From: an uncultured Bacteroidota bacterium
Lineage (GTDB): Bacteria; Bacteroidota; Bacteroidia; Bacteroidales; F082
Assembly: GCA_903957365.1 (NCBI GenBank)
Contig: CAJBPB010000179.1
Location: 1 to 64,000 of the forward strand
DNA: 64,000 nucleotides
Direction of reading: 5' to 3'
Every line of letters starts with the position of its first letter. The stretch's first letter is position 1. The position numbers and the translations under genes were made by a program. Shown piece by piece: positions 1 through 13,490 of this stretch. The notes below the pieces were generated by a model that worked only from the letters and a program-made list of their open reading frames with translations, had not been told where the DNA came from and did no database searches.

Positions 1-680
1 CTGTCGAGGCATGCGCAGAGCCAAAAAGCGGAGTTTACTTTTGGTAAATGAGCATTTTGGCTCAAGCATAACGATGAGAGGGGACTTTATAGACAGACAC
101 TAATTAGAAACATCTAACTCTGCGTAACTTTGCCTATTACTTTGCGGATCTCCACTCGGTTAAAAAACATAGAATAGAAGATTGGTAAGTTATTTTATTC
201 AGGCTATATCAAAATGACTGCGACATTATTTGAATCAATTTCTTTGTTAACCATATAAATTGATCTGAAAGTAAAAATACTGAATGAAAGGTTATTAAAC
301 TTTAGATAGTTTTATTGGAAACTGAATAAAAAGGACTGCTAATCAATATATTATCCATTGGTCCATTGCTTTCAGTTCCTGTTTTTGTTTTCCCTTCAAG
401 TACTTAGCTTACCCAAAATCCTCTTTTTCCACGTAATTTGGAATTATTATAAATTACATTCCGTCAGAAGAATAATAATTAGTCGGATTAGCAGTTTATT
501 TCTCTTGTAACCCACTGTTTACAGTGGTTTCAGCGTTTTTTCACGAAAATTTCTAAACATATGAGCTGTAGTTCATCCTTATGAACTTCCAGTTCGAACA
601 ACTTGAAGTGTATTTTTGATTGAATTATCGTTTTTTTGTACTTTGTAATAACTGGAAAAAGGATCCTTCATTCATTAAAT
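1..680. other. Left-edge non-coding region
   Basis: No convincing gene lies here. Bases 18-26 and 55-63 form a 9-bp perfect inverted repeat (GAGCCAAAA/TTTTGGCTC). A short reading frame open to the window edge ends near base 104, so the first hundred bases may be the tail of a gene or of an interspersed element whose body lies outside the window. At about 117-146 there are three loose copies of a CT(C/T)TGCG-like unit. The rest is AT-rich with no recognisable signal until the promoter before the first gene. Confidence 0.5.
615..645 (+). promoter_or_regulatory. Probable promoter of the multihaem electron-transfer operon
   Basis: A TTTG at 615-618 is followed after 20 bases by TACTTTG at 639-645. 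This resembles the Bacteroidota sigma-70 pattern TTTG/TAnnTTTG, but the -7 box is one base short of consensus. It sits 35 bases before the ATG at 681, which leaves a short leader and supports that start. Confidence 0.5.
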
Positions 681-1550
681 ATGTCAAAAGCAGCACACTT
701 CGTTTACATCGCCCTGATGTCGGTCATTGTTTTATTCTCACTTGCAGCGCTTGTTTATTATGGCAATTCATATTATCAGACAGGTATTGAGGAGCGGTTT
801 TTTCATGAAAGTCACACAACACTGAAGCCAAGCGGAGCAATCGGCCACGGATTAGGCATTGTTGGCACCATATTCATGATAATCGGAGTATTTTTTTATA
901 TGGCCCGGAAGAGAATCAGAATGTTCTCGCGTATCGGCGTCTTAAAATACTGGCTCGAATTTCACATTTTCCTGTGCACATTAGGTCCGGTGATGGTTTT
1001 GTTTCATACAGCCTTTAAGTTTGGCGGAATAGTATCGATCAGTTTCTGGAGTATGGTGGCGGTTTTTTTGAGTGGTGTTATCGGGCGGTTCATTTATATT
1101 CAGATTCCACGATCCATTGAAGGCCGCGAACTGAGTTTAAATGAAATCAGGGATATGAAAACTGATTTGCGGTCTTTACTTCCTTCAATGATTACCATTA
1201 GTGAAGAAGACTTTCAATACATCGAGAATGCCACCAAAAGAAAAATTGAGAGTAAATCAGGAACGGTTGTGTCCAGGTTTTTCAAAAAGAACAGAGAAGA
1301 AAACCGGATGTTAAGACAAGTCAAAGCTATTTTGGTGAAAAACAAACTGACCAGACAACAACGCAATGACCTGATGAAAATGGTTCAGAACGAAATTTCA
1401 TTGAATCACCGCATTGACCGCTTGCAACTCATGCAGAATTTATTCAAATACTGGCATGTCGCGCATCTGCCTTTTGCACTTATCATGCTTATTATCATGA
1501 TCATACATGTTGCTGTAACAATAACTTTTGGATTTAAATGGATTTTCTGA
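681..1550 (+). CDS. Di-haem b-type membrane cytochrome, five predicted helices (289 aa)
   Basis: Likely the inner-membrane haem b subunit of the electron-transfer chain encoded by the following genes. Five hydrophobic segments are seen at about 8-28, 55-75, 92-112, 118-140 and 262-285. Helix 3 has His95 and His109, and the last helix has His262 and His276. Each pair is spaced 14 residues, as in bis-His di-haem cytochromes b; His56 in helix 2 and His259 are further candidates. A basic, helical loop of about 120 residues (145-258) separates helices 4 and 5 and should be cytoplasmic. I chose ATG 681 over an upstream TTG because it follows a promoter-like element. The stop at 1550 is one base before the next ATG, so the two genes are surely co-transcribed. 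I cannot name a precise family; a ferric-reductase-like or quinol-linked role is also possible. Confidence 0.75.
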   Translation: MSKAAHFVYIALMSVIVLFSLAALVYYGNSYYQTGIEERFFHESHTTLKPSGAIGHGLGIVGTIFMIIGVFFYMARKRIRMFSRIGVLKYWLEFHIFLCTLGPVMVLFHTAFKFGGIVSISFWSMVAVFLSGVIGRFIYIQIPRSIEGRELSLNEIRDMKTDLRSLLPSMITISEEDFQYIENATKRKIESKSGTVVSRFFKKNREENRMLRQVKAILVKNKLTRQQRNDLMKMVQNEISLNHRIDRLQLMQNLFKYWHVAHLPFALIMLIIMIIHVAVTITFGFKWIF

Positions 1551-1551
1551 T

Positions 1552-2886
1552 ATGGAACTAGTCGTTGAACAAATATTGGTTTATGCCATCGTGATTCTAC
1601 TAATAGTGGTTGTAGTATTTATTTACCTTAGGAAACAAAAACGGGAATCGAATATCGTGGATGCGAAAATTGTACAGGCCAAACTGGATGGTTTGTATGA
1701 ACCCGTTTCATTACATCCGGTTATAGATATCAACCATTGTATTAAAAGTGGTGCCTGTATTGTGGCTTGTCCTGAGAAAGACATTCTGGGAATCAGGAAC
1801 GGTAAAGCAACCACTATCAATGCTTCACATTGTATCGGCCATGGCGCATGTTTTCACGCTTGTCCTACAGAAGCGATCACCCTTTGCATTGGTACCGAAA
1901 AACGTGGTGTTGATTTGCCACATGTGAGTCAGACTTTTGAAACCAATGTTCCGGGCGTTTATATTGCAGGTGAACTTGGCGGCATGGGATTGATTAAAAA
2001 TGCAGTGGTGCAGGGACAGCAGGCAGTTGAGAATATTGTTAAGGTTTTCAAAAAGAATCATATAGCCGATTTCGATCTCATTATTATCGGAGCAGGTCCG
2101 GCAGGAATTTCTGCGTCTCTCACAGCAAAAAAGAATGGTTTGAAATTTCTTACGCTGGAGCAGGACACATTGGGTGGAACTGTTTTTACCTTTCCCCGTT
2201 CAAAAATTGTAATGACTTCTGCCATGGACCTGCCATTATTTGGTAAGGTTAAACTCCTTGAAACCAGCAAAACAGAGTTGCTTGATTTGTGGATCAATGT
2301 TCTGGCTAAAAATGAAATCAGTATCAAAGAAAACTCGAAGGTCGAAGCCATTCAAAGCGAAAATGGTATATTTAAAGTAACCACCCTCAACAATGAGCAT
2401 TTTACCTCGAAGCATATACTTTTGACGATCGGACGAAGGGGAACACCACGTAAACTTGGCGCACCTGGCGAATCCCTTGAAAAAGTGGCGTATAGGTTAC
2501 TGGAGCCTGAAGATATCAAAGGAAAGAAAATTCTCGTGGTTGGCGGAGGCGATTCAGCCGTTGAAAGCGCTTTATTGCTCGCTGATCAAAATGTTGTCAC
2601 ACTTTCTTACAGGAGTGAATTGTTCAACAGGTTAAAAGTAAAGAATAACCAGAAAATTACTGAAGCCATCGCCAATGGATTGATTGATATGCAGTTTAAT
2701 ACCACTGTTGGACTCATCGAGAAAAATAGCGTAACTTTAGTACATGGTATCACAGCGGAACGACAGACCATTGCGAATGATCTTGTCTTTATTTTTGCCG
2801 GTGGTGAATTACCGACACAGTTTTTACAGAAAATTGGAATACAGATAACCAAGAAATTTGGTGACGCTTTATTAAAACATAATTAA
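1552..2886 (+). CDS. Membrane-anchored Fe-S/FAD NAD(P)H oxidoreductase (444 aa)
   Basis: Probable cytoplasmic electron-input subunit. An N-terminal helix (about 5-26) followed by Arg/Lys places the rest in the cytoplasm. Residues 57-112 form a ferredoxin-like domain with two clusters, C63/C69/C73-Pro and C94/C100/C104-Pro. In both, the usual second Cys of CxxCxxCxxxCP is replaced (Ser66, His97). A segment with VPGVYIAGELGG (about 133-144) resembles the C-terminal FAD contact of thioredoxin-reductase-fold enzymes. It is followed by a TrxR-like module with the FAD loop GAGPAG (180-185) and the NAD(P)H loop GGGDSAVE (331-338). No CxxC redox disulphide is seen in that module, so it is not a true thioredoxin reductase. 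The start is the ATG one base after the cytochrome b stop, and the next gene begins 11 bases downstream. Inference: NAD(P)H to FAD to Fe-S to haem b. Confidence 0.8.
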   Translation: MELVVEQILVYAIVILLIVVVVFIYLRKQKRESNIVDAKIVQAKLDGLYEPVSLHPVIDINHCIKSGACIVACPEKDILGIRNGKATTINASHCIGHGACFHACPTEAITLCIGTEKRGVDLPHVSQTFETNVPGVYIAGELGGMGLIKNAVVQGQQAVENIVKVFKKNHIADFDLIIIGAGPAGISASLTAKKNGLKFLTLEQDTLGGTVFTFPRSKIVMTSAMDLPLFGKVKLLETSKTELLDLWINVLAKNEISIKENSKVEAIQSENGIFKVTTLNNEHFTSKHILLTIGRRGTPRKLGAPGESLEKVAYRLLEPEDIKGKKILVVGGGDSAVESALLLADQNVVTLSYRSELFNRLKVKNNQKITEAIANGLIDMQFNTTVGLIEKNSVTLVHGITAERQTIANDLVFIFAGGELPTQFLQKIGIQITKKFGDALLKHN

Positions 2887-2897
2887 TCCGGACAATA

Positions 2898-4499
2898 ATG
2901 AAAAAGCGGTTTGCATTGTATGTTGTATTGCTGGTTCTATTTAATCTACTGAATAACAGTAGTAATGCACAAATTTCTCCCGGTGATTTGTGCGAACCAC
3001 ATGCGCATCTGGAAGGGATGACCAATTGTACGCTATGTCATATACTGGGTGACAAAGTGTCGAATGATAAATGTCTGGATTGCCACAAGGAGCTCAAAAG
3101 CCGTATTGACCAGAACAAAGGGTATCATGTGTCAACCGAGATTAAAGGTAAAGAATGTGTAAGTTGCCACAATGATCACCATGGACGTAAATTCGAAGTG
3201 ATTCGTTTTCAGACTGAAAAATTTGATCATAAACTTACCGGTTACACCCTCGAAGGCGCCCATGCCAAAAAGGAATGTAAAGATTGCCACAAGTCTGAAT
3301 TCATCACCGATGCGGATGTTAAGAAACTCAAGTTCGATTCCTATCTTGGATTATCCACCGAATGTCTGGGCTGTCATGAAGATTACCACCAGAAAACCTT
3401 GTCTTCATCTTGTTTGAATTGCCATGATTATGAGGCTTTTAAACCGGCACCTAAGTTTGATCACAACAAAGCGAAATTCAAACTCGTGGGCAAACACACC
3501 GAAGTTGTTTGTTTGGATTGTCACAAAAAAGAACAGAAAGCCGGGAAAGATTACCAGATTTTTGCTGGAATGGAATTTAAAAACTGTACCGCATGCCACG
3601 AGGATGTGCATGACAATAAATTCGGACAGGATTGTCGCAAATGCCATTCAGAAGAATCCTTTCATACCATCAAGGGGATGAAGGATTTCGATCACAGCAA
3701 AACGAATTTTAAACTCGAAGGAAAACACAATACCGTTTCCTGTACTTTGTGTCATAAAACCAACCTGACCGATCCTGTAAAACATGAGCGTTGCATCGAT
3801 TGTCATACCGATTATCATGAAAAGCAGTTTGTAAAAGATGGTATTTCACCTGATTGTATTGAATGTCATTCGGTGAATGGTTTTGCGGGTTCATCCTTTA
3901 CAATCGAGAAACATGCCCTCAGTAAGTTTCCATTACAAGGCGCCCATCTGGCAACACCTTGTTTCGTTTGTCATAAAAAACAGGAAAGGTGGAGTTTCAG
4001 ACAGATTGGAAATCAATGTGTTGACTGTCATGAAAACATTCATAAGACATTTATTGACGAGAAATATTACCCGGAATCAGATTGCAAAACGTGTCACAGT
4101 GAAAACTTTTGGCGTGAAGTAACTTTTGATCATAATCTGACGCCATATCCGCTTGAAGGCGCTCACAAGGATCAGGGTTGTCGTGAATGTCACTTTAAGG
4201 TTGGTGCCGATGGCGAAGTACATCAGCAGTTTACAGGATTATCACAGCAATGCTCCAATTGTCACAAAGATTCGCACCGCAATCAGTTTGAGAAAAATGG
4301 TGTTACAGATTGCAAAGCCTGCCATGAAAAGATAAGCTGGGATGTTACTCAGTTTGATCACAATAAAACCAGTTTTAAACTTGAGGGAAAACATGCTGAG
4401 GTGGCATGTAAAGAATGCCATAAAGAGTCGCTGGAACCAGATTCAAAGTTTGTACTTTACAAAATAAACGAATTCAAATGCGAAGACTGTCATCATTAA
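2898..4499 (+). CDS. Periplasmic 20-haem c-type cytochrome (533 aa)
   Basis: A secreted multihaem cytochrome with a signal peptide ending around residue 24 (a hydrophobic run, then SNA-Q). I count 20 CxxCH haem c sites spread over the whole mature chain, about one per 25 residues. The last sits at the extreme C-terminus (CEDCHH). A recurring pattern FDH, about 10 residues, G(K/A)H, 4-5 residues, CxxCH appears at least six times. The extra His residues are natural distal ligands, suggesting bis-His haems of the class III/c7 type. No lipobox and no sorting domain are seen, so a soluble periplasmic shuttle between the inner-membrane module and the outer membrane is the best guess. The following gene starts inside its last codons (22-base overlap). 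Confidence 0.9.
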   Translation: MKKRFALYVVLLVLFNLLNNSSNAQISPGDLCEPHAHLEGMTNCTLCHILGDKVSNDKCLDCHKELKSRIDQNKGYHVSTEIKGKECVSCHNDHHGRKFEVIRFQTEKFDHKLTGYTLEGAHAKKECKDCHKSEFITDADVKKLKFDSYLGLSTECLGCHEDYHQKTLSSSCLNCHDYEAFKPAPKFDHNKAKFKLVGKHTEVVCLDCHKKEQKAGKDYQIFAGMEFKNCTACHEDVHDNKFGQDCRKCHSEESFHTIKGMKDFDHSKTNFKLEGKHNTVSCTLCHKTNLTDPVKHERCIDCHTDYHEKQFVKDGISPDCIECHSVNGFAGSSFTIEKHALSKFPLQGAHLATPCFVCHKKQERWSFRQIGNQCVDCHENIHKTFIDEKYYPESDCKTCHSENFWREVTFDHNLTPYPLEGAHKDQGCRECHFKVGADGEVHQQFTGLSQQCSNCHKDSHRNQFEKNGVTDCKACHEKISWDVTQFDHNKTSFKLEGKHAEVACKECHKESLEPDSKFVLYKINEFKCEDCHH

Positions 4500-7400
4500 T
4501 TATCTTATTGACCTTGTCGGTAAGTTTATTTGCCCAGTCGCCTCATGGAGACGAATTGAAGATCAGTTGTGCGGATTGCCACAACCCGGATGGTTGGAAA
4601 ATGGTGGAAGGAAGATACACCTTCACCCACAGTTCAACTGATTTCCCACTGGTTGGCCAGCATCAGACGGTCAATTGTAAAGCTTGTCACACTGATCTGG
4701 TATTCTCAAAAGCCGAATCAGATTGTATTTCCTGTCACAAAGATGTGCATGAGCAAACAGTGGGTAATGAATGTTCAAGATGTCATACACCGCAATCGTG
4801 GTTGGTTTCAAATACTACCCAATTACACGAACAAAGTCGTTTCCCGTTGCTTGGCGCTCACGCTACTGCTGATTGTTTTCAATGTCATGAATCAGCATCC
4901 CTGCTTCGTTTTGATCCACTTGGAATCGATTGTTACGATTGTCATCAGACTGATTATCAGGAAGCAAAAGAACCTGACCATGTGGCTGGTAACTTTTCAA
5001 CGGACTGTGCCGAATGTCATGCGATGAATGCCTTTGAATGGAAAGGAGCCGGGATAAGCCATCTTTTCTTCCCGCTCACACAAGGTCATGAAATAAGTGA
5101 TTGCTTTGCCTGCCATGTTCAGGGACAGGATTACAATAGTATTTCGCAGGAATGTGTAAGTTGCCATCAATCTGATTATAACGCTGCGACAAATCCAAAT
5201 CACCAGACATCAGGTTTCTCAACCGATTGTGCTCAATGTCATACGACCAGTCCGGGCTGGAAACCAGCCAAAATGACTGACCATGATGGGCAGTATTTCC
5301 CGATTTATTCTGGCAAACACGAAGGTGAATGGGACAATTGCTATGATTGTCATACAACCTCAGGTAATTATGGATTGTTTAGTTGCATCGATTGCCACGA
5401 ACACAACCAATCGGATATGAACAGCGAACACGATGATGTCGGGGGATATTCATGGAACAGCAATGCTTGTTTTGAATGTCATCCGCAAGGTGATGGAGAA
5501 GGAAGTTTTAATCATAGTCAATCGAATTTTCCATTGTCAGGCGCACATCTTACAACTGATTGTTCAGAATGCCATGCTGCCGGTTACACCGGAACAACTA
5601 CAGCATGCGGCGATTGCCATTTAGCCGATTTTAATGCGGCGACCAATCCAAATCACTCCGAGCTAGGTCTGGCGAATAACTGCGAAAGCTGCCACGATGC
5701 AACTCCGGGCTGGTCGCCTGCTACGATGGAGAATCACAATGAATTTTATTTACTTGATGGGGCACATCTTGATATAGCCTCTGATTGTATATCCTGTCAC
5801 GATGGAAACTATACCAACTCGCCCAATACCTGTTTTGGCTGTCACGATGATAATTTCAATCAGACAACCAATCCGAATCACCAGGAAATAGGAATTGCCA
5901 CCGAATGTGAGGATTGTCATACAACGATCCCCGACTGGAAACCAGCAACATTCCCGACGCACAATGATTATTATGTACTCAATGGAGCACACAATACCAT
6001 AGCTACCGACTGTTTTACCTGTCATGAGGGAAATTATATCAATACACCTAATTTGTGTTTTGGTTGCCATGCTGCTGATTATGACCAGACATCAAATCCG
6101 CCTCACGCCGCAGCACAGTTCTCAACTGAATGTGAAACCTGCCATTCAGAAACGGCCTGGTCACCTTCCACCTTTGACCATGATGCGCAATATTTTCCGA
6201 TTTACAGCGGAAGTCATGCCGGTGAATGGACAGCATGTACCGAATGCCATACTACATCAGGCAATTATACTGTTTTCAGCTGTATTGATTGTCACGATCA
6301 CAATCAGGTTGATACTGACAATGAGCACAATGGTGTAAGTGGTTATACCTACAACAGCAATGCATGTTTTGAATGTCATCCAACAGGTGATGGAGAAGGT
6401 TTTAATCATAATCTTTCAGATTTCCCATTGACAGGAGCTCATCTCACTGTGGAATGTATTGCTTGTCATGAGAATGGGTTTAGTGGAACAACAACGGTTT
6501 GTTCAGAATGCCATACCTCTGATTATAATCAGGCAACAAATCCGAACCATATACAAGCCTCAATTCCAACTACCTGCGAAACATGTCATACCACAGAACC
6601 TGGCTGGGCTCCAGCTTCTTTCCCCATTCATAATGATGTTTATCCGCTGACGGGTGCGCATGCTACTGTTCAGAATGACTGTTTCACTTGTCATGAAGGT
6701 AATTATACAAATACTCCGGATGCCTGTTCAGGTTGTCATACTGATGAGTATAATCAATCCGTCAATCCAAACCATTTACAGGCCGGGATTCCGACAAGCT
6801 GTGAAACCTGCCACACGACTGTGCCTGGCTGGGCGCCTGCCACCTTCCCGATCCATAATGATTATTATGCTCTGAATGGTGCACATACAACAGTAGATTG
6901 TTTTACATGTCATGAAGGAAGTTATACAAACACACCTAATTTGTGTTTTGGTTGCCATGCGGATGATTATAACCAGACTACCAATCCGAATCATATTGCC
7001 GCGCAGTTCCCGACCACATGTGAATCATGTCATACGGAAACAGCCTGGGAGCCAGCAACTTTTGACCATGATGGACAATATTTCCCGATATATAGTGGAA
7101 GTCATGCTGGTGAATGGACCAATTGTAATGAATGTCATACAACTCCTGGTAATTTCGCTGAATTCAATTGTATCATTTGTCACACACAAACTGAAACAAA
7201 TGATGAGCATCAGGGTGTGAGTGGTTATGCATGGAACAGTGAAGCCTGTTTTGCCTGTCATCCTAACGGTGAAGGAGACGGATTTAATCATAGTCTGACC
7301 GATTTCCCGCTTACAGGAGCGCATCTGGCTGTGGCTTGTATCGAGTGTCACGAAAATGGCTACACAGGTACAACAACAGTTTGCTCTGAATGTCATACTG

Positions 7401-9094
7401 CTGACTATAACCAGAGTACAAATCCAAATCACCTGCAGAATAATATCCCGACAACCTGCGAAACATGTCACACAACCGCGCCTGGCTGGGCACCGGCCAC
7501 TTTCCCGATTCACAATGAATATTATGAACTGACAGGGGCACACCAGACCATTTCAGCGGATTGTTTTGCCTGTCATGAAGGTAATTACACGAATACCCCA
7601 AATGCCTGTGCCGGATGTCATACAGATGATTATAATGCCACATTAAATCCGAACCACGCAGCAATCAATATCCCGACAGATTGTGAATTGTGTCATACTA
7701 CCTTGCCTGATTGGGCGCCGGCTACATTCCCGATTCACAACGATTATTACGTTTTGGCAGGTGCACACGCTGCAATAGCAGCCAATTGTGCAGAATGCCA
7801 TAATGGGGATTATAATAACACACCTAACAGTTGTTATGGATGTCATCAGGATGATTATGACCAGACAACAGATCCAAATCATGCTGTTGCCCAATTCCCG
7901 ACAACCTGTGAAGATTGCCATACTGAAACAGCCTGGACACCCTCTACATTTGACCACGACGGGCAATATTTTCCGATCTATTCAGGGTCACATCAGGGTG
8001 AGTGGACCAGTTGTGCCGAGTGTCATACAAATCCAAGTGACTATACTGAGTTTAATTGTATTATCTGTCACACCCAGCCTGATATGAATGATGAACATCA
8101 GGGTGTGAGTGGTTATACCTGGAACAGTGATGCTTGTTTTGCCTGTCATCCAAATGGGGAAGGTGATGGATTTAATCATAATACTTCTAATTTCCCGTTA
8201 ACCGGAGCTCATATAACCGTCGCCTGTATCGAATGTCACGAGAATGGTTATGCAGGAACCTCGATGGTTTGTTCCGATTGCCATACTGATGATTATAACC
8301 AAAGTACAAATCCGAATCACCAGCAGGCTGGTATTCCAAATACATGTGAAACCTGTCATACAACGGCTGCGGGCTGGGCACCGGCAACTTTCCCGATTCA
8401 CAATGATTACTATGCCTTAACAGGAGCCCATCAGACCATCTCAGCGGAATGTTTTGCCTGTCATGAAGGAGATTATAACGACACACCAAATACGTGTGTT
8501 GGTTGCCATACCACAGATTATAACCAGGCCACAAATCCAAATCACCTGACTCTTAATATCCCTACAGATTGTGAAATGTGTCATACAACCAATCCAACCT
8601 GGGAGCCGGCTACCTTCCCGATACACAGTAACTATTATGTGTTGTCGGGTGCCCATGTTTCAGTGAATTGTGATGAGTGTCATGGAGGAAACTATAACAA
8701 TAATACCCCGACTGATTGTTTTGGCTGTCATCAGGATGATTATAACCAGACCAGTGATCCGGATCATGAATTGGCTCAGTTCCCGACAACTTGTGAAGAT
8801 TGTCATACCCAGACAGCCTGGGAGCCTTCGACTTTCGATCATGACGGGCAGTATTTCCCAATATATTCAGGTGAACATAACGGAGAATGGAATACTTGCG
8901 CGGATTGTCACACAACGCCAACAAACTATGCCATCTTCTCATGCATCACCTGTCATGAACACCGGCAATCAGAAATGGATTCGGAACATCAGGGTGTTTC
9001 AGGTTACAGCTATAACAGCAATGCGTGTTATACTTGTCATCCTGACGGAAGCAGTGATAAAGGATTTCAACAAATAATTAAAAGAGAAAACTAA
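4478..9094 (+). CDS. Giant 61-haem c-type cytochrome (1538 aa)
   Basis: I count 61 CxxCH motifs in 1538 residues, and essentially every Cys belongs to one. A signal peptide (residues 1-20, ending LFAQ, then SPHG) supports the ATG at 4478 although it overlaps the previous gene by 22 bases. The layout is regular. Haems 1-12 form an N-terminal module (to about residue 330). Four repeats of 12 haems then begin at Cys331, 630, 924 and 1220 (periods 299, 294, 296 and 297 residues), and haem 61 is at Cys1517. Each repeat runs from CHPxGxGEGFNH through GAH, PNH and PIHND segments to FDHDGQYFPIYSGxH and SCIxCH. Interspersed His residues could ligate every haem. The tail ends in REN with no T9SS domain, lipobox or membrane helix. 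An outer-surface or barrel-spanning wire is inferred from the adjoining barrel gene. Confidence 0.92.
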   Translation: MRRLSSLIILLTLSVSLFAQSPHGDELKISCADCHNPDGWKMVEGRYTFTHSSTDFPLVGQHQTVNCKACHTDLVFSKAESDCISCHKDVHEQTVGNECSRCHTPQSWLVSNTTQLHEQSRFPLLGAHATADCFQCHESASLLRFDPLGIDCYDCHQTDYQEAKEPDHVAGNFSTDCAECHAMNAFEWKGAGISHLFFPLTQGHEISDCFACHVQGQDYNSISQECVSCHQSDYNAATNPNHQTSGFSTDCAQCHTTSPGWKPAKMTDHDGQYFPIYSGKHEGEWDNCYDCHTTSGNYGLFSCIDCHEHNQSDMNSEHDDVGGYSWNSNACFECHPQGDGEGSFNHSQSNFPLSGAHLTTDCSECHAAGYTGTTTACGDCHLADFNAATNPNHSELGLANNCESCHDATPGWSPATMENHNEFYLLDGAHLDIASDCISCHDGNYTNSPNTCFGCHDDNFNQTTNPNHQEIGIATECEDCHTTIPDWKPATFPTHNDYYVLNGAHNTIATDCFTCHEGNYINTPNLCFGCHAADYDQTSNPPHAAAQFSTECETCHSETAWSPSTFDHDAQYFPIYSGSHAGEWTACTECHTTSGNYTVFSCIDCHDHNQVDTDNEHNGVSGYTYNSNACFECHPTGDGEGFNHNLSDFPLTGAHLTVECIACHENGFSGTTTVCSECHTSDYNQATNPNHIQASIPTTCETCHTTEPGWAPASFPIHNDVYPLTGAHATVQNDCFTCHEGNYTNTPDACSGCHTDEYNQSVNPNHLQAGIPTSCETCHTTVPGWAPATFPIHNDYYALNGAHTTVDCFTCHEGSYTNTPNLCFGCHADDYNQTTNPNHIAAQFPTTCESCHTETAWEPATFDHDGQYFPIYSGSHAGEWTNCNECHTTPGNFAEFNCIICHTQTETNDEHQGVSGYAWNSEACFACHPNGEGDGFNHSLTDFPLTGAHLAVACIECHENGYTGTTTVCSECHTADYNQSTNPNHLQNNIPTTCETCHTTAPGWAPATFPIHNEYYELTGAHQTISADCFACHEGNYTNTPNACAGCHTDDYNATLNPNHAAINIPTDCELCHTTLPDWAPATFPIHNDYYVLAGAHAAIAANCAECHNGDYNNTPNSCYGCHQDDYDQTTDPNHAVAQFPTTCEDCHTETAWTPSTFDHDGQYFPIYSGSHQGEWTSCAECHTNPSDYTEFNCIICHTQPDMNDEHQGVSGYTWNSDACFACHPNGEGDGFNHNTSNFPLTGAHITVACIECHENGYAGTSMVCSDCHTDDYNQSTNPNHQQAGIPNTCETCHTTAAGWAPATFPIHNDYYALTGAHQTISAECFACHEGDYNDTPNTCVGCHTTDYNQATNPNHLTLNIPTDCEMCHTTNPTWEPATFPIHSNYYVLSGAHVSVNCDECHGGNYNNNTPTDCFGCHQDDYNQTSDPDHELAQFPTTCEDCHTQTAWEPSTFDHDGQYFPIYSGEHNGEWNTCADCHTTPTNYAIFSCITCHEHRQSEMDSEHQGVSGYSYNSNACYTCHPDGSSDKGFQQIIKREN

Positions 9095-9105
9095 AACCAA
9101 AAATC

Positions 9106-10716
9106 ATGAAGTACGTTTTTTCATTCATAATGTTTTTTCTCTCCATCATGCTGGTAACAGGTCAGGAATCCGCAGAAATTAAAGAAGGAAAAGTTTCTTA
9201 TGTCACGAACCAGAATGTGTATGTGCGATTTTCAAGTACTGAAAATATTACCATAGGAGATACTCTTTTTGTGATGAAGAATGACAAAAAAGTACCCCTG
9301 CTTAAAGTGATAACGCTATCATCCATTTCTGCAGTTTGTACGCCTTTAACCAGTGAGGTAATAAAAGTTGAAACACAAATATTTGCCAATACCAGACAAA
9401 TTCCTGTTCAGAATGTTCAGGCAGAATCTCAGCAAGTAAATCCTGTAGTACCTCTGGCTGCAAAAACGGTTATAAATCAAGACACACTTGCTGCTGGCAA
9501 AGTAACGCCTAAGCAGGAAATCAGTGGCCGTCTCGGGGTTTCCTCTTATCTTAATTTTTCGAATTCTGCAGCTGGTAATTCACAGAGAATGCGTTATACG
9601 TTTTCGATGAATGCGAAAAATATTTCTGGTTCAAAGCTTTCAGCGGAAACGTATATTTCTTTTGTTCATAAAAGCAAGCAGTGGAGCGAGATTCAGGAAG
9701 ATATTTTCAACGGTTTAAAAATATACAGTCTGGCTTTAAACTATAAATTCAATGACAATCATCAGGTTTGGGCAGGAAGGAAAATTAATCCAAAAATATC
9801 CAATATTGGTGCCGTTGATGGTGTTCAGTATGAGGCAAAGATGAAAGCATTTACAGTAGGACTGGTGGGCGGTTTCCGCCCCGATTATGCTAATTATACT
9901 TTCAGTTCAAAACTTCCGCAGTTTGGCGCTTTTGTCAGTCATGACAAGAAAACTGAAATTGGCAATATGCAAAATTCACTCGCGTTTTTTGAACAGCGAA
10001 ACAGCGGGAATACTGACCGCCGCTTTGCTTATTTTCAACACTCCAACTCATTGGTGAAAAATCTTTACTTTTTTGGGTCACTGGAAGCCGATTTGTACAA
10101 GAAAGTAGGGGACACAATTAGTAATTCACCACGCTTGTCGAATATGTATTTTTTATTGCGGTACCGCATTATTAAACCATTAACTGTTTCAATATCATAT
10201 AGTTCAAGAACGAATATTATATATTACGAAACCTATAAGGACATTATTGACCGATTGCTGGAAACCGAATCAACACAGGGTTTTATGGGACAAATTAATT
10301 ACCGTCCGGTAAAGTACATGACTGTAGGGTTAAAAGGAAGTTACCGGGTCAGGAAAAATGATCCGAAACCAACTGAAAATGCCTACGCATATATCACCTA
10401 CAGCCGACTTCCGGTGATCAATGCCTCTGCGACCGTTTCAACAACCTGGATGCAGACTTCCTATCTTACCGGGAATATTTACAGTATCAATTTTTCAAAG
10501 GATTTTCTGGCTGGGAGTTTATATGGAGGTATAGGCTACCGTTACGTTGATTATGCTTTTTATAGTGGAGAGTTTGAACAAAAGCAACATATGGCTGAAT
10601 TGAATCTGACGATGCGAATCACGAAGAAGCTCTATTGTTCAATGAATTATGAAGGAACATTTGAAAAATCGACCAATCTGAGTCATATATATCTAAATGT
10701 AACACAGCGGTTTTAA
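9106..10716 (+). CDS. Outer-membrane beta-barrel, probable porin partner of the cytochromes (536 aa)
   Basis: The signal peptide ends near residue 19 (VTG-Q). Residues about 25-110 form a small beta-rich domain with an SH3-like feel (GKVSYV, VYVRF, GDTLFVM), followed by a linker to about 130. From about 137 onward there are alternating amphipathic strands with aromatic girdles, and the chain ends in Phe (TQRF), as outer-membrane barrels do. About 400 residues is enough for some 18-22 strands. The gene lies 11 bases after the 61-haem gene and before the 34-haem gene. That order is expected for a porin-cytochrome conduit in which a barrel sheathes a multihaem protein, as in MtrB or PCC systems. 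No sequence similarity to MtrB is obvious and no CxxC is present. The assignment rests on architecture and context. Confidence 0.75.
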   Translation: MKYVFSFIMFFLSIMLVTGQESAEIKEGKVSYVTNQNVYVRFSSTENITIGDTLFVMKNDKKVPLLKVITLSSISAVCTPLTSEVIKVETQIFANTRQIPVQNVQAESQQVNPVVPLAAKTVINQDTLAAGKVTPKQEISGRLGVSSYLNFSNSAAGNSQRMRYTFSMNAKNISGSKLSAETYISFVHKSKQWSEIQEDIFNGLKIYSLALNYKFNDNHQVWAGRKINPKISNIGAVDGVQYEAKMKAFTVGLVGGFRPDYANYTFSSKLPQFGAFVSHDKKTEIGNMQNSLAFFEQRNSGNTDRRFAYFQHSNSLVKNLYFFGSLEADLYKKVGDTISNSPRLSNMYFLLRYRIIKPLTVSISYSSRTNIIYYETYKDIIDRLLETESTQGFMGQINYRPVKYMTVGLKGSYRVRKNDPKPTENAYAYITYSRLPVINASATVSTTWMQTSYLTGNIYSINFSKDFLAGSLYGGIGYRYVDYAFYSGEFEQKQHMAELNLTMRITKKLYCSMNYEGTFEKSTNLSHIYLNVTQRF

Positions 10717-10871
10717 TCGATTCCTGACATGCCTGGCATTACTGATATACAGGATTTTCTGAATCCCCGATTGTAAATTCCCATTGATAACAATCCAAAA
10801 GGAAAACTGAATACATATCCTGATGAAATCAAAATAGAATGCTTTCAATTATATTGAACAGAAAATACAAA

Positions 10872-13490
10872 ATGCAACGACTAACAATAATCATATTTTT
10901 CCTGATCCTTTCAACTACATTGATCGCACAATCACCGCATGGCGATGAATTGAAAATCAGCTGTTCAGAATGTCACAATCCGAATGGCTGGAAAATGGTG
11001 GAAGGAACCTTCACTTTCACACACAGTTCAACAGATTTTCCATTGGTCGGGCAACATCAATCAATCAGTTGTAAAGCATGTCATAACGATCTTATTTTTT
11101 CGAAGGCTCAGACTGATTGCATTTCATGCCATACAGATATCCATGAACAAACTGTCGGGAATGAATGTTCGCGTTGCCACACTCCGCAATCATGGCTGGT
11201 TGAAAATACAACACAACTGCACGAGCAGAGTCGTTTCCCGTTGCTTGGTGCTCATGCCACTGCCGATTGTTTTCAGTGTCATGAATCCGCATCATTGCTT
11301 CGTTTTGATCCGCTTAGTATCGATTGTTTCGATTGTCATCAGACTGATTATCAGGCGGCAAAAGAACCTGACCATGTGGCTGGTAATTTTTCAACGGACT
11401 GTGCCGAATGTCATGCAATGAATGCCTTTGAATGGAAAGGAGCCGGGATAAGCCATCTTTTCTTCCCGCTCACACAAGGTCATGAAATCAGTGATTGCTT
11501 TGCCTGTCATGTTCAAGGCCAGAATTACAATAGTATTAGTCAGGAATGTGTCAGCTGCCATCAATCTGACTATAATTCAACAATAAATCCAGATCATCAG
11601 GCATCAGGATTTTCAACTGATTGTTCACAATGTCATTCTACCAGTCCGGGCTGGAAACCAGCCAAAATGACTGACCATGATGGGCAGTATTTTCCGATTT
11701 ATTCAGGCAAACACGAGGGTGAATGGAATAATTGCAATGAATGCCATACCACATCAGGAAATTACGGATTATTCAGCTGTATTGATTGTCACGAACACAA
11801 CCAATCAGATATGAACAGCGAACACAATGATGTTGGAGGTTATTCATGGAACAGCAACGCCTGCTTTGAATGTCATCCCCAAGGAGATGGAGAAGGAAGT
11901 TTTAACCACAGTCAATCGAATTTCCCATTGACCGGTGCGCATCTGACAACGGATTGTTCACAATGTCATGCAACGGGTTATACCGGAACTACCACAGCGT
12001 GTGGTGATTGTCACCTTGTCGATTTTAACCAGACGACCAATCCAAACCACACCGAATTAGGACTTGCGGTTAGCTGTGAAACTTGCCATACTACTGAATC
12101 TGGCTGGACACCTGCTACAATGGACAATCACAACGATTACTTTGTTTTGAATGGCGCGCATATAACAACGGATTGTTTTGCGTGCCATGAAGGAAACTAT
12201 ACCGCGACTCCTAATCTTTGCTTTGGTTGCCATGCTGATAATTATAATGAAACCACAAATCCTCCCCATATAGCCTCACAATTTAATACGGAATGTGAAA
12301 CGTGTCATTCAGAAACAGCATGGACTCCTGCAACTTTTGACCACGATGCCGAATTTTTCCCTATTTACAGTGGAAGCCACGCCGGTGAATGGACCAATTG
12401 TATTGAATGCCATACGACACCAAACAATTATACTTTGTTCAGTTGCATTGATTGTCACGATCACAATCAGACCGATATGGCTGATGAGCACAATGGGATT
12501 TCCGGATATAGCTGGAATAGTAATGCCTGTCTTGAGTGTCATCCAAATGGTGATGGAGAAGGATTTAACCATGCAACTTCAAATTTTCCATTGACAGGAG
12601 CACATCTGACAGTGGATTGTATTGGGTGTCATGAAAGTGGCTATTCCGGGACAACTACAGTTTGTGCGGGTTGCCATACGGATAATTACAATCAGGCAAC
12701 CAATCCGAATCACATTCAGAACGGAATTTCGACAAACTGTGAATCCTGCCACACAACCGAAGCAGGATGGGCACCGGCAACTTTCGCTATTCACAATGAT
12801 TTTTACGCATTGACAGGAGCGCATTCTACTATCCAAAACGATTGCTTTACCTGTCACGAAGGAAATTATAACAATACACCGAATGCCTGTTCAGGTTGTC
12901 ATACGCCTGATTATGCCCAGGCGACCAATCCGAACCATCAGCAACTTGGGATTCCAACTACATGCGAAACATGTCATACAACAGTATCAGGATGGGCGCC
13001 GGCAACTTTCCCGACACACAATGATTACTATGTCCTTACAGGAGCCCATGCATCAATCAGCACTAGTTGTTTTGAGTGTCACTCCGGAAATTATACCAAT
13101 ACACCCAATACCTGTTATGGTTGTCATCAGGACGATTTTAACCAGACCAATGATCCGGATCATCAGGTAGCACAATTTCCAACAGCCTGTGAAGATTGTC
13201 ATTCTCAATCTGCCTGGGAGCCATCTACCTTCGACCACGACGGGCAGTATTTTCCGATTTATTCTGGACAACATGATGGAGAATGGACCACATGTATTGA
13301 ATGTCATACCAATCCTACGAACTACGCTGTTTTCAGTTGTATTGATTGTCACGAACACAATCAGGCTGAAATGGCCAGTGAGCACAATGGTGTAAGCGGT
13401 TACCAATGGAATAGCAATGCATGTCTGGATTGCCATCCCAATGGAGATGGTGATAAAGGAAAACTTAATAAGGTGTCACGGGAAAACTAA
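10872..13490 (+). CDS. 34-haem c-type cytochrome, paralogue of the 61-haem protein (872 aa)
   Basis: I count 34 CxxCH motifs. The start at ATG 10872 is chosen over an ATG 33 bases upstream because the signal peptide then aligns residue for residue with the 61-haem paralogue and Cys331 again opens haem 13. Layout: a 12-haem N-terminal module almost identical to the paralogue; a 9-haem repeat (222 residues, from Cys331); a full 12-haem repeat (298 residues); then the single terminal haem. The short repeat lacks exactly one three-haem unit of about 76 residues. The C-terminus also ends in REN and has no sorting domain. The 155-base gap after the barrel gene has no clear promoter or terminator, so co-transcription with the operon is likely but not shown. 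Confidence 0.92.
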   Translation: MQRLTIIIFFLILSTTLIAQSPHGDELKISCSECHNPNGWKMVEGTFTFTHSSTDFPLVGQHQSISCKACHNDLIFSKAQTDCISCHTDIHEQTVGNECSRCHTPQSWLVENTTQLHEQSRFPLLGAHATADCFQCHESASLLRFDPLSIDCFDCHQTDYQAAKEPDHVAGNFSTDCAECHAMNAFEWKGAGISHLFFPLTQGHEISDCFACHVQGQNYNSISQECVSCHQSDYNSTINPDHQASGFSTDCSQCHSTSPGWKPAKMTDHDGQYFPIYSGKHEGEWNNCNECHTTSGNYGLFSCIDCHEHNQSDMNSEHNDVGGYSWNSNACFECHPQGDGEGSFNHSQSNFPLTGAHLTTDCSQCHATGYTGTTTACGDCHLVDFNQTTNPNHTELGLAVSCETCHTTESGWTPATMDNHNDYFVLNGAHITTDCFACHEGNYTATPNLCFGCHADNYNETTNPPHIASQFNTECETCHSETAWTPATFDHDAEFFPIYSGSHAGEWTNCIECHTTPNNYTLFSCIDCHDHNQTDMADEHNGISGYSWNSNACLECHPNGDGEGFNHATSNFPLTGAHLTVDCIGCHESGYSGTTTVCAGCHTDNYNQATNPNHIQNGISTNCESCHTTEAGWAPATFAIHNDFYALTGAHSTIQNDCFTCHEGNYNNTPNACSGCHTPDYAQATNPNHQQLGIPTTCETCHTTVSGWAPATFPTHNDYYVLTGAHASISTSCFECHSGNYTNTPNTCYGCHQDDFNQTNDPDHQVAQFPTACEDCHSQSAWEPSTFDHDGQYFPIYSGQHDGEWTTCIECHTNPTNYAVFSCIDCHEHNQAEMASEHNGVSGYQWNSNACLDCHPNGDGDKGKLNKVSREN

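Follow-up and report, generated by a model that had tools for sequence, protein, structure and literature searches.

Haem number changes in steps of three in probable wire-like cytochromes of a Bacteroidota operon resembling PCC3

Comparison with described multihaem systems

The PCC3 systems described from proteobacteria combine, in one cluster, a porin, a partner cytochrome with a median of 21 haems and an inner-membrane protein of ~300 residues, and their outer cytochromes (median 34, up to 85 haems) contain repeats and have been proposed to act as wires (He et al. 2017, PMC5566968). The inner-membrane protein of PCC3 and PCC4 is recognised by a signature of two WX3HX13H motifs and one SGXXG motif (PMC5566968). 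The subject of this study is a pair of paralogous genes, A and B, which code for proteins with 61 and 34 CXXCH haem motifs, respectively, and lie in a stretch of 64,000 nucleotides (hereafter the window) on contig CAJBPB010000179.1 of an uncultured Bacteroidota bacterium (assembly GCA_903957365.1). We consider it likely that A and B are haem-wire cytochromes of a PCC3-like operon in a Bacteroidales-type bacterium, whose length moves by three haems through recombination between repeat units, with a putative chain geometry. The idea of a wire and the variability of haem number are themselves already published for PCC3-type cytochromes.

Judged by sequence and model likeness, the operon resembles PCC3 in having a barrel, a partner of ~20 haems, an inner-membrane protein with the signature, and huge, repeat-rich cytochromes with ~25 residues per haem; 85 haems, the largest number among the homologues collected here (locus L069), is also the largest PCC3 count in PMC5566968. 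It differs in including a 4Fe-4S/flavin adenine dinucleotide (FAD) oxidoreductase and a second wire, in a barrel (22 predicted strands) smaller than most PCC3 porins as described, and in belonging to Bacteroidota, whereas the published clusters are mostly proteobacterial. According to the part of PMC10734462 covered here, the outer PCC3 cytochromes of Gallionellaceae have 10-16 and 18, or 26, 28, 29, 33 and 35, or 15 and 17 haems, and the periplasmic ones 21, 24 and 27, so that the periplasmic numbers keep to steps of three and the outer ones do not, while here it is the putative outer protein that moves in threes. Insertions and deletions (indels) of haem domains between close relatives have been reported for Burkholderiales and Anaerolineales, with gain or loss in pairs or multiples, by Arbour et al. 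2020 (PMC7399161). As in the window, a porin follows two large cytochromes there, of 24 and 49 haems, but the section covered reports neither a fixed quantum or unit nor junctions at the DNA level. For the outer wire of Bacteroidota, a strict three-haem step, a hierarchy of blocks and base-level junctions were not found in searches of open-licence literature, outside which most subscription journals fall.

The Geobacter c7 polymers GSU1996 (12 haems) and GSU2210 (27 haems; part of PMC10138318 covered here) are, like A and B, built of tandem three-haem domains in one chain, with haem numbers in threes, but the GSU1996 domains each have one His-Met haem, whereas in proteins of the A/B type the spare histidines match the haems one to one. 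The c7 model nanowire_3heme (TIGR04257) matched neither A nor B at an E limit of 0.01, and gave 22.5 bits, below its cut-off of 40, for the 20-haem partner. The haem spacing of c7, 24-14-~33, is the cyclic reverse of the 15-25-35 of A and B. OmcS, OmcE and OmcZ, whose haem chains carry electrons beyond the cell, are polymers of small subunits, whereas the length of A and B is encoded in one polypeptide. A phmmer search of B against PDB chains gave no match, and the A1 profile matched only 1z1n, a sixteen-haem cytochrome, weakly (E 4e-4). For MtrCAB, the DmsE/MtrA model TIGR03508 stayed far below its cut-off (at most 57 of 192 bits), and Pfam matches to MtrC/F domains II and IV were rejected, since the haem motifs behind them belong to a different repeat. 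A cluster of six multihaem cytochromes plus a barrel in Bacteroidetes, presented as having no known relatives in the part of PMC8258643 covered here, may or may not be the present system; no wire of the A/B type appears in the parts covered of that paper or of PMC12977616.

Haem number among homologues and the three-haem unit

Homologues were gathered through the N-terminal region, with matches in 17 of 41 relatives, 30 of 173 genomes of the family and 39 of 393 of the order, and a scan of named genome contigs added 18 loci. All matches that could be fetched were kept (88 loci plus the window, all from Bacteroidota genomes). They hold 94 wire-type open reading frames (ORFs), which after removal of 2 duplicates leave 92 unique genes, and 86 complete ones when the 6 that are cut by contig ends or contain N are set aside. 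Outside the 86 are also L066, in which masked bases or stops interrupt the frame, the second copy of G004 (L040/L070), and the B orthologue of G001 (L036), which is truncated at the 5' end and shows 26 haems.

Counted on CXXCH alone, haem numbers span 12 to 85, and 74 of the 86 leave a remainder of one when divided by three (1 mod 3). Nine of the 12 exceptions (L039, L043, L049, L057, L058, L064, L126, L132 and L138) carry a CX3CH or CX4CH motif at a block-final haem; the presence of these motifs led us to reject single-haem losses in the nine genes. With both motifs included, 83 of the 86 are 1 mod 3, with 13, 16, 19, 22, 25, 28, 31, 34, 37, 40, 43, 46, 49, 55, 61, 73 or 85 haems, and the three-haem step between A and B is thus not a matter of chance. 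Mature length rises by 24.91 residues per haem (r 0.9995) and the number of spare histidines by 1.03 per haem (r 0.995), which makes bis-histidine ligation possible throughout. The 83 genes that keep to the rule have 2,459 haem sites between them, with no sign of the loss of a single site. The blocks into which the units are grouped contain 9 (40 cases), 12 (34), 15 (16) or 6 haems (8), and 18, 27, 33 and 42 once each, all of them multiples of three. The quantum of length change is therefore three haems, and twelve is one of several block sizes: the three-haem module that the earlier note on this DNA had proposed was borne out, as was its expectation that homologues would differ in steps of three, while the twelve-haem module that it placed beside the first calls for correction.

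Three observations concern the shape of individual wires. The longest (L069, 4032-10475) is a single frame of 2148 residues with 85 CXXCH and blocks of 15, 15, 15 and 27 haems. In other lineages (L137, L145 and L065) the array repeats with a period of six haems (spacing 32-15-25-33-15-23) and not in blocks of 9 or 12. A divergent sister group with 12 haems (L050, L151 and L152) is without the closing haem and stands beside a long wire or replaces it.

Length differences between close relatives fall on the same unit. The N-terminal regions of 8 gene pairs are at least 95% identical. In 5 of these pairs the two haem numbers are unequal, always by a multiple of three; the 5 represent three independent events. 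The 31-haem gene of G010 is separated from the 34-haem genes of G023 and G180 by an indel of 225 base pairs (bp), with 92.8 and 91.8% DNA identity elsewhere; the 22-haem gene of G022 from the 28-haem gene of G051 by two indels of 219 bp (92.1% elsewhere); the 34-haem gene of G186 from the 49-haem genes of G017 and G187 by 1116 bp, a 15-haem block (93.3 and 93.6% elsewhere, in the order G017, G187); and the 28-haem gene of G046 from the 31-haem gene of G047 by 222 bp (78.4% elsewhere). Clean indels of this kind show directly what the earlier note had claimed, that length evolves by whole three-haem units. The short gene of each near-identical pair is a hybrid whose two parts meet at homologous positions of two units, over a stretch of 4-20 bp in which the breakpoint fits equally well anywhere. 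At only 48 and 59% identity to its neighbours, the extra unit of G023 is too unlike them for a fresh copy, and the pair accordingly reads as a loss of the unit in G010. In the opposite direction, unit pairs inside genes reach 96.7% DNA identity in G061 and 96.2% in G505 (both with a period of 3 units), 94.4% in G307 (2 units), 90% in G187/G017 (1 unit) and 90.6% in G184 (4 units). Altogether, pairs at 86-97% identity were found at distances of 1, 2, 3, 4 and 5 units, which suggests that between 3 and 15 haems were gained recently.

The plans of A and B themselves are given in Table 1. The ORF listing starts B at its first ATG, but the second ATG gives an N-terminus matching that of A, and it is from there that haem 13 falls at residue 331, as had been noted before. 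From haem 13 onwards B has 9 haems in 222 residues and then 12 haems in 298 residues up to haem 34, exactly as described earlier; the four 12-haem blocks of A comprise 299, 294, 296 and 297 residues, with a closing haem as in B. The first blocks of the two proteins differ by 77 residues (about 76 had been claimed), which, with an array mean of 74.7 residues per three haems, corresponds to about one three-haem unit.

The units are of opening, internal and closing types. When they are compared one by one, B haems 13-15 match A haems 13-15 at 87% amino-acid identity and B haems 19-21 match A haems 22-24 at 79%, while the second block of B starts like the second block of A (76%) and ends like its last block (79%); B has one three-haem unit fewer in the first block, plus 24 haems fewer further on. 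The single internal unit of the first block of B starts like A haem 16 (PATM.NHN) and finishes like A haems 20-21. What B lacks is therefore probably A haems 17-19, a stretch shifted by one haem from the unit drawn in the earlier note, whose count of one three-haem unit stands while its placement probably does not. In the A orthologues of G002 and G003, haem 16 is 73% identical in amino acids to the start of this unit; within A itself haem 16 gives 58% and haem 31 matches better, at 70%. Alignment of A and B located the stretch approximately; silent sites are near saturation outside the N-terminal region, which prevents the breakpoint of this pair from being placed to the exact base, and an attempt to do so by unit and single-haem comparison was given up, the genes being too diverged.

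As for direction, of the 44 proteins outside the genus that follow the 12+blocks+1 plan, 21 have a first block of 9 haems, and 25 do so when split blocks are included (four "3+6" cases, which are 9-haem blocks cut by a 27-residue spacing). A first block of 9 haems is also found in the B genes of three other species of the genus, of which that of G001 is cut by a contig end. Since the 9-haem block is the commonest outside the genus and also occurs in the B genes within it, the state of B is probably the older one, with a unit gained in A; a loss in B is less likely.

A separate observation concerns the N-terminal regions of A and B (4478-5467 and 10872-11861), which appear homogenised. Over haems 4-12 they are 87-89% identical in DNA, with 59-76% identity at 4-fold sites, far above the 20-50% that is mostly found at 4-fold sites between A-A and B-B orthologue pairs, while haems 1-3, at 26%, show no homogenisation. 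This suggests gene conversion between the two regions within this genome.

Features of the operon

The genes stand in the operon-like order inner-membrane protein, 4Fe-4S/FAD oxidoreductase, 20-haem cytochrome, A, beta-barrel, B (Table 1).

Table 1 Features of the operon and of genes A and B, with positions in the window.
Feature	Position	Strand	Details
Inner-membrane protein (304 residues), probable di-haem b-type quinone-reactive subunit	636..1550	+	two WX3HX13H and SGXXG
4Fe-4S ferredoxin and FAD/nicotinamide adenine dinucleotide (phosphate) (NAD(P))-type oxidoreductase (452 residues)	1528..2886	+	Pfam Pyr_redox_3 5e-41, Fer4_10 1e-9
20-haem cytochrome (533 residues), probable periplasmic partner	2898..4499	+	20 CXXCH
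Gene A, 61-haem wire protein (1538 residues), plan 12+12+12+12+12+1	4478..9094	+	signal peptide-like N-terminus
A, two internal three-haem units of the first block (haems 16-18 and 19-21), against one in B	5681..6130	+	unit and single-haem comparison; coordinates from haem positions
Outer-membrane beta-barrel (536 residues)	9106..10716	+	small N-terminal beta domain, then 22 predicted strands (residues 138-535)
Gene B, 34-haem wire protein, plan 12+9+12+1; likely start 10872 (872 residues)	10839..13490	+	
B, N-terminal 12-haem region (haems 1-12), common to A (90% amino-acid identity)	10962..11861	+	
B, 9-haem block (haems 13-21), three three-haem units	11862..12527	+	
B, 12-haem block (haems 22-33), four three-haem units	12528..13421	+	
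B, terminal single haem 34 (CLDCHPNGDGDKG...), array-closing; truncated block start	13422..13490	+	

Contig ends truncate many of the 88 loci that were fetched; homologues of the inner-membrane protein were found in 73 of the 88, of the oxidoreductase in 80 and of the barrel in 79. Full inner-membrane homologues keep both WX3HX13H motifs in 69 of 70 cases and SGXXG in 70 of 70. A simple hydropathy scan of the window protein gives overlapping segments over residues 105-158, and four to six transmembrane helices are possible, compared with the five of the PCC3 protein. The partner cytochrome has 20 CXXCH in 68 of 76 homologue frames, 23 in 5 and 19 in 1, with 2 frames split, so its haem number is nearly constant, unlike that of the wires. 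A partner with 23 haems, also a step of three, is seen in six loci (L037, L069, L127, L131, L150 and L154). The AlphaFold2 model of the barrel has a mean predicted local distance difference test score (pLDDT) of 79.8, and its top Foldseek matches in the PDB are general outer-membrane barrels; MtrB (6r2q_B) comes only at rank 34, and the barrel shows no special likeness to it.

The finished plasmid pEMTOL02 of Emticicia oligotrophica DSM 17448, a cultured isolate, carries beside ccsA an operon with matching gene order (L154), in which the wire has 40 haems (1 mod 3) and the partner 23. Searched against a plasmid collection, the inner-membrane protein found proteobacterial proteins beside cytochromes at 21-24% identity, in loci without a wire; the plasmid relatives in Methylophaga, Alteromonas and Pontibacter, which stand beside small cytochromes and FAD or 2Fe-2S oxidoreductases, likewise without a wire, were set aside. 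Promoter and terminator scans gave nothing usable, with fewer terminators than in shuffled sequences.

Proposed mechanism and competing explanations

In the mechanism that we propose, an invariant N-terminal region of 12 haems is followed in each wire by a variable array built of three-haem units and by one closing haem, with each unit of ~75 residues bringing three spare histidines as second haem ligands, and with the opening, internal and closing types making up blocks of 6, 9, 12 or 15 haems, or larger ones. At homologous positions of two units, recombination or template switching would delete or duplicate whole units or blocks in frame and in register, and length would move in three-haem steps since the repeat period of the DNA is three haems, while selection would retain every haem site within the array. 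Electrons from quinol would pass through the inner-membrane protein or the FAD enzyme to the 20-haem cytochrome, then through the barrel to external wires, each three-haem unit lengthening the chain by a fixed step. What the sequences show directly is the repeat unit, its three-haem step, the indels that separate close relatives, tandem copies at 86-97% DNA identity and an operon that is conserved; beyond this we infer bis-histidine ligation, a continuous haem chain, an extracellular location, this electron route and a physiological use of the difference between 61 and 34 haems. A bolder form, in which the three-haem cassette is the unit of both recombination and conduction, reach is tuned from 13 to 85 haems in ~75-residue steps that leave the chain unbroken, and long and short wires are kept together in one operon for different tasks, is tentative and on the whole unlikely.

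Several findings weigh against the proposal that A and B are wires that move in three-haem steps. Both proteins have plain signal peptide-like N-termini, and neither a lipobox nor a type IX secretion C-terminal domain was found in them by eye or with Pfam, leaving them without a sequence sign of export to the cell surface. AlphaFold2 modelling of B with 19 sequences was unusable (mean pLDDT 38.8, predicted template modelling score 0.18), so that the geometry of the haem chain is without model support. Three homologues, with 12 haems, fall off 1 mod 3 and form a sister group in the tree; the partner of G296 has lost one motif (CLEYH, leaving 19 haems); outside their indel, G046 and G047 are only 78% identical and the breakpoint is diffuse; and the genomes other than the Emticicia plasmid are metagenome-assembled or unnamed assemblies.

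The competitor that fares best, with a real if lesser chance of being right, is a purely mutational origin of the step, in which a repeat of 225 bp changes by whole repeats and length is neutral. It would account for the indel junctions lying at homologous positions of neighbouring units, and for the tree of 83 genes, on which at least 52 changes of haem number are required, little below random placement (56-66 in 200 shuffles). Against it, haem sites are not lost singly, and wherever at least two complete wires are encoded together (nine loci or genomes), their haem numbers are unequal, although one of the nine (13, 13, 19) also has an equal pair. Both points are still compatible with a neutral total length.

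That the array is a capacitor, with the number of units setting the electrons held, appears rather unlikely, although haem number does scale with length at constant density and such a role has been proposed for GSU1996 and, as one option, for PCC3 in the parts of PMC10138318 and PMC10734462 covered here. A store should tolerate a missing haem and a chain should not, and the absence of single-site losses therefore fits an uninterrupted chain better, if indirectly. The two roles are not mutually exclusive.

We regard it as quite unlikely that the wires are periplasmic and bridge both membranes without ever leaving the cell, which the plain N-termini and the unseen lipobox or sorting domain would allow, and which has a precedent in proteins of the GSU1996 type, described as periplasmic in the part of PMC10138318 covered here. 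The operon, however, already has a 20-haem cytochrome of near-constant size plus a barrel. Haem chains rise by ~0.8-1 nm per haem, and on this basis 13-85 haems, if extended, would far exceed one periplasm.

Finally, it is highly improbable that a short-read assembler collapsed or expanded the repeats and that the unit numbers are unreal: the draft G000 consists of 385 contigs, the encoded proteins are repetitive and the wires of several relatives stop at contig ends, but in the assembled sequences the longest exact direct repeat measures 23 bp within B and 29 bp within A, too short for ordinary collapse of short reads, with 71 bp across the two genes and at most 46 bp in the relatives compared, and related species share the design (all 34 haems are spaced identically in the B orthologues of G002 and G003, the truncated G001 orthologue has the 9-haem first block, A of G002 has the same 61-haem plan, and the finished Emticicia wire fits the rule).

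The family offers a natural length series (13, 16, 19, ... 85) of single-chain haem proteins with a constant start and end. Close pairs one, two or five units apart would allow conduction, redox potential and phenotype to be measured against chain length alone, and such pairs bear on the question of wire versus capacitor; Emticicia oligotrophica DSM 17448 is a possible test organism. For annotation, a haem count off 1 mod 3 suggests an overlooked CX3CH or CX4CH motif or a broken frame, and may serve as a check of the gene model. In evolutionary terms, the gain and loss of whole three-haem units provide a simple path to very long electron carriers.

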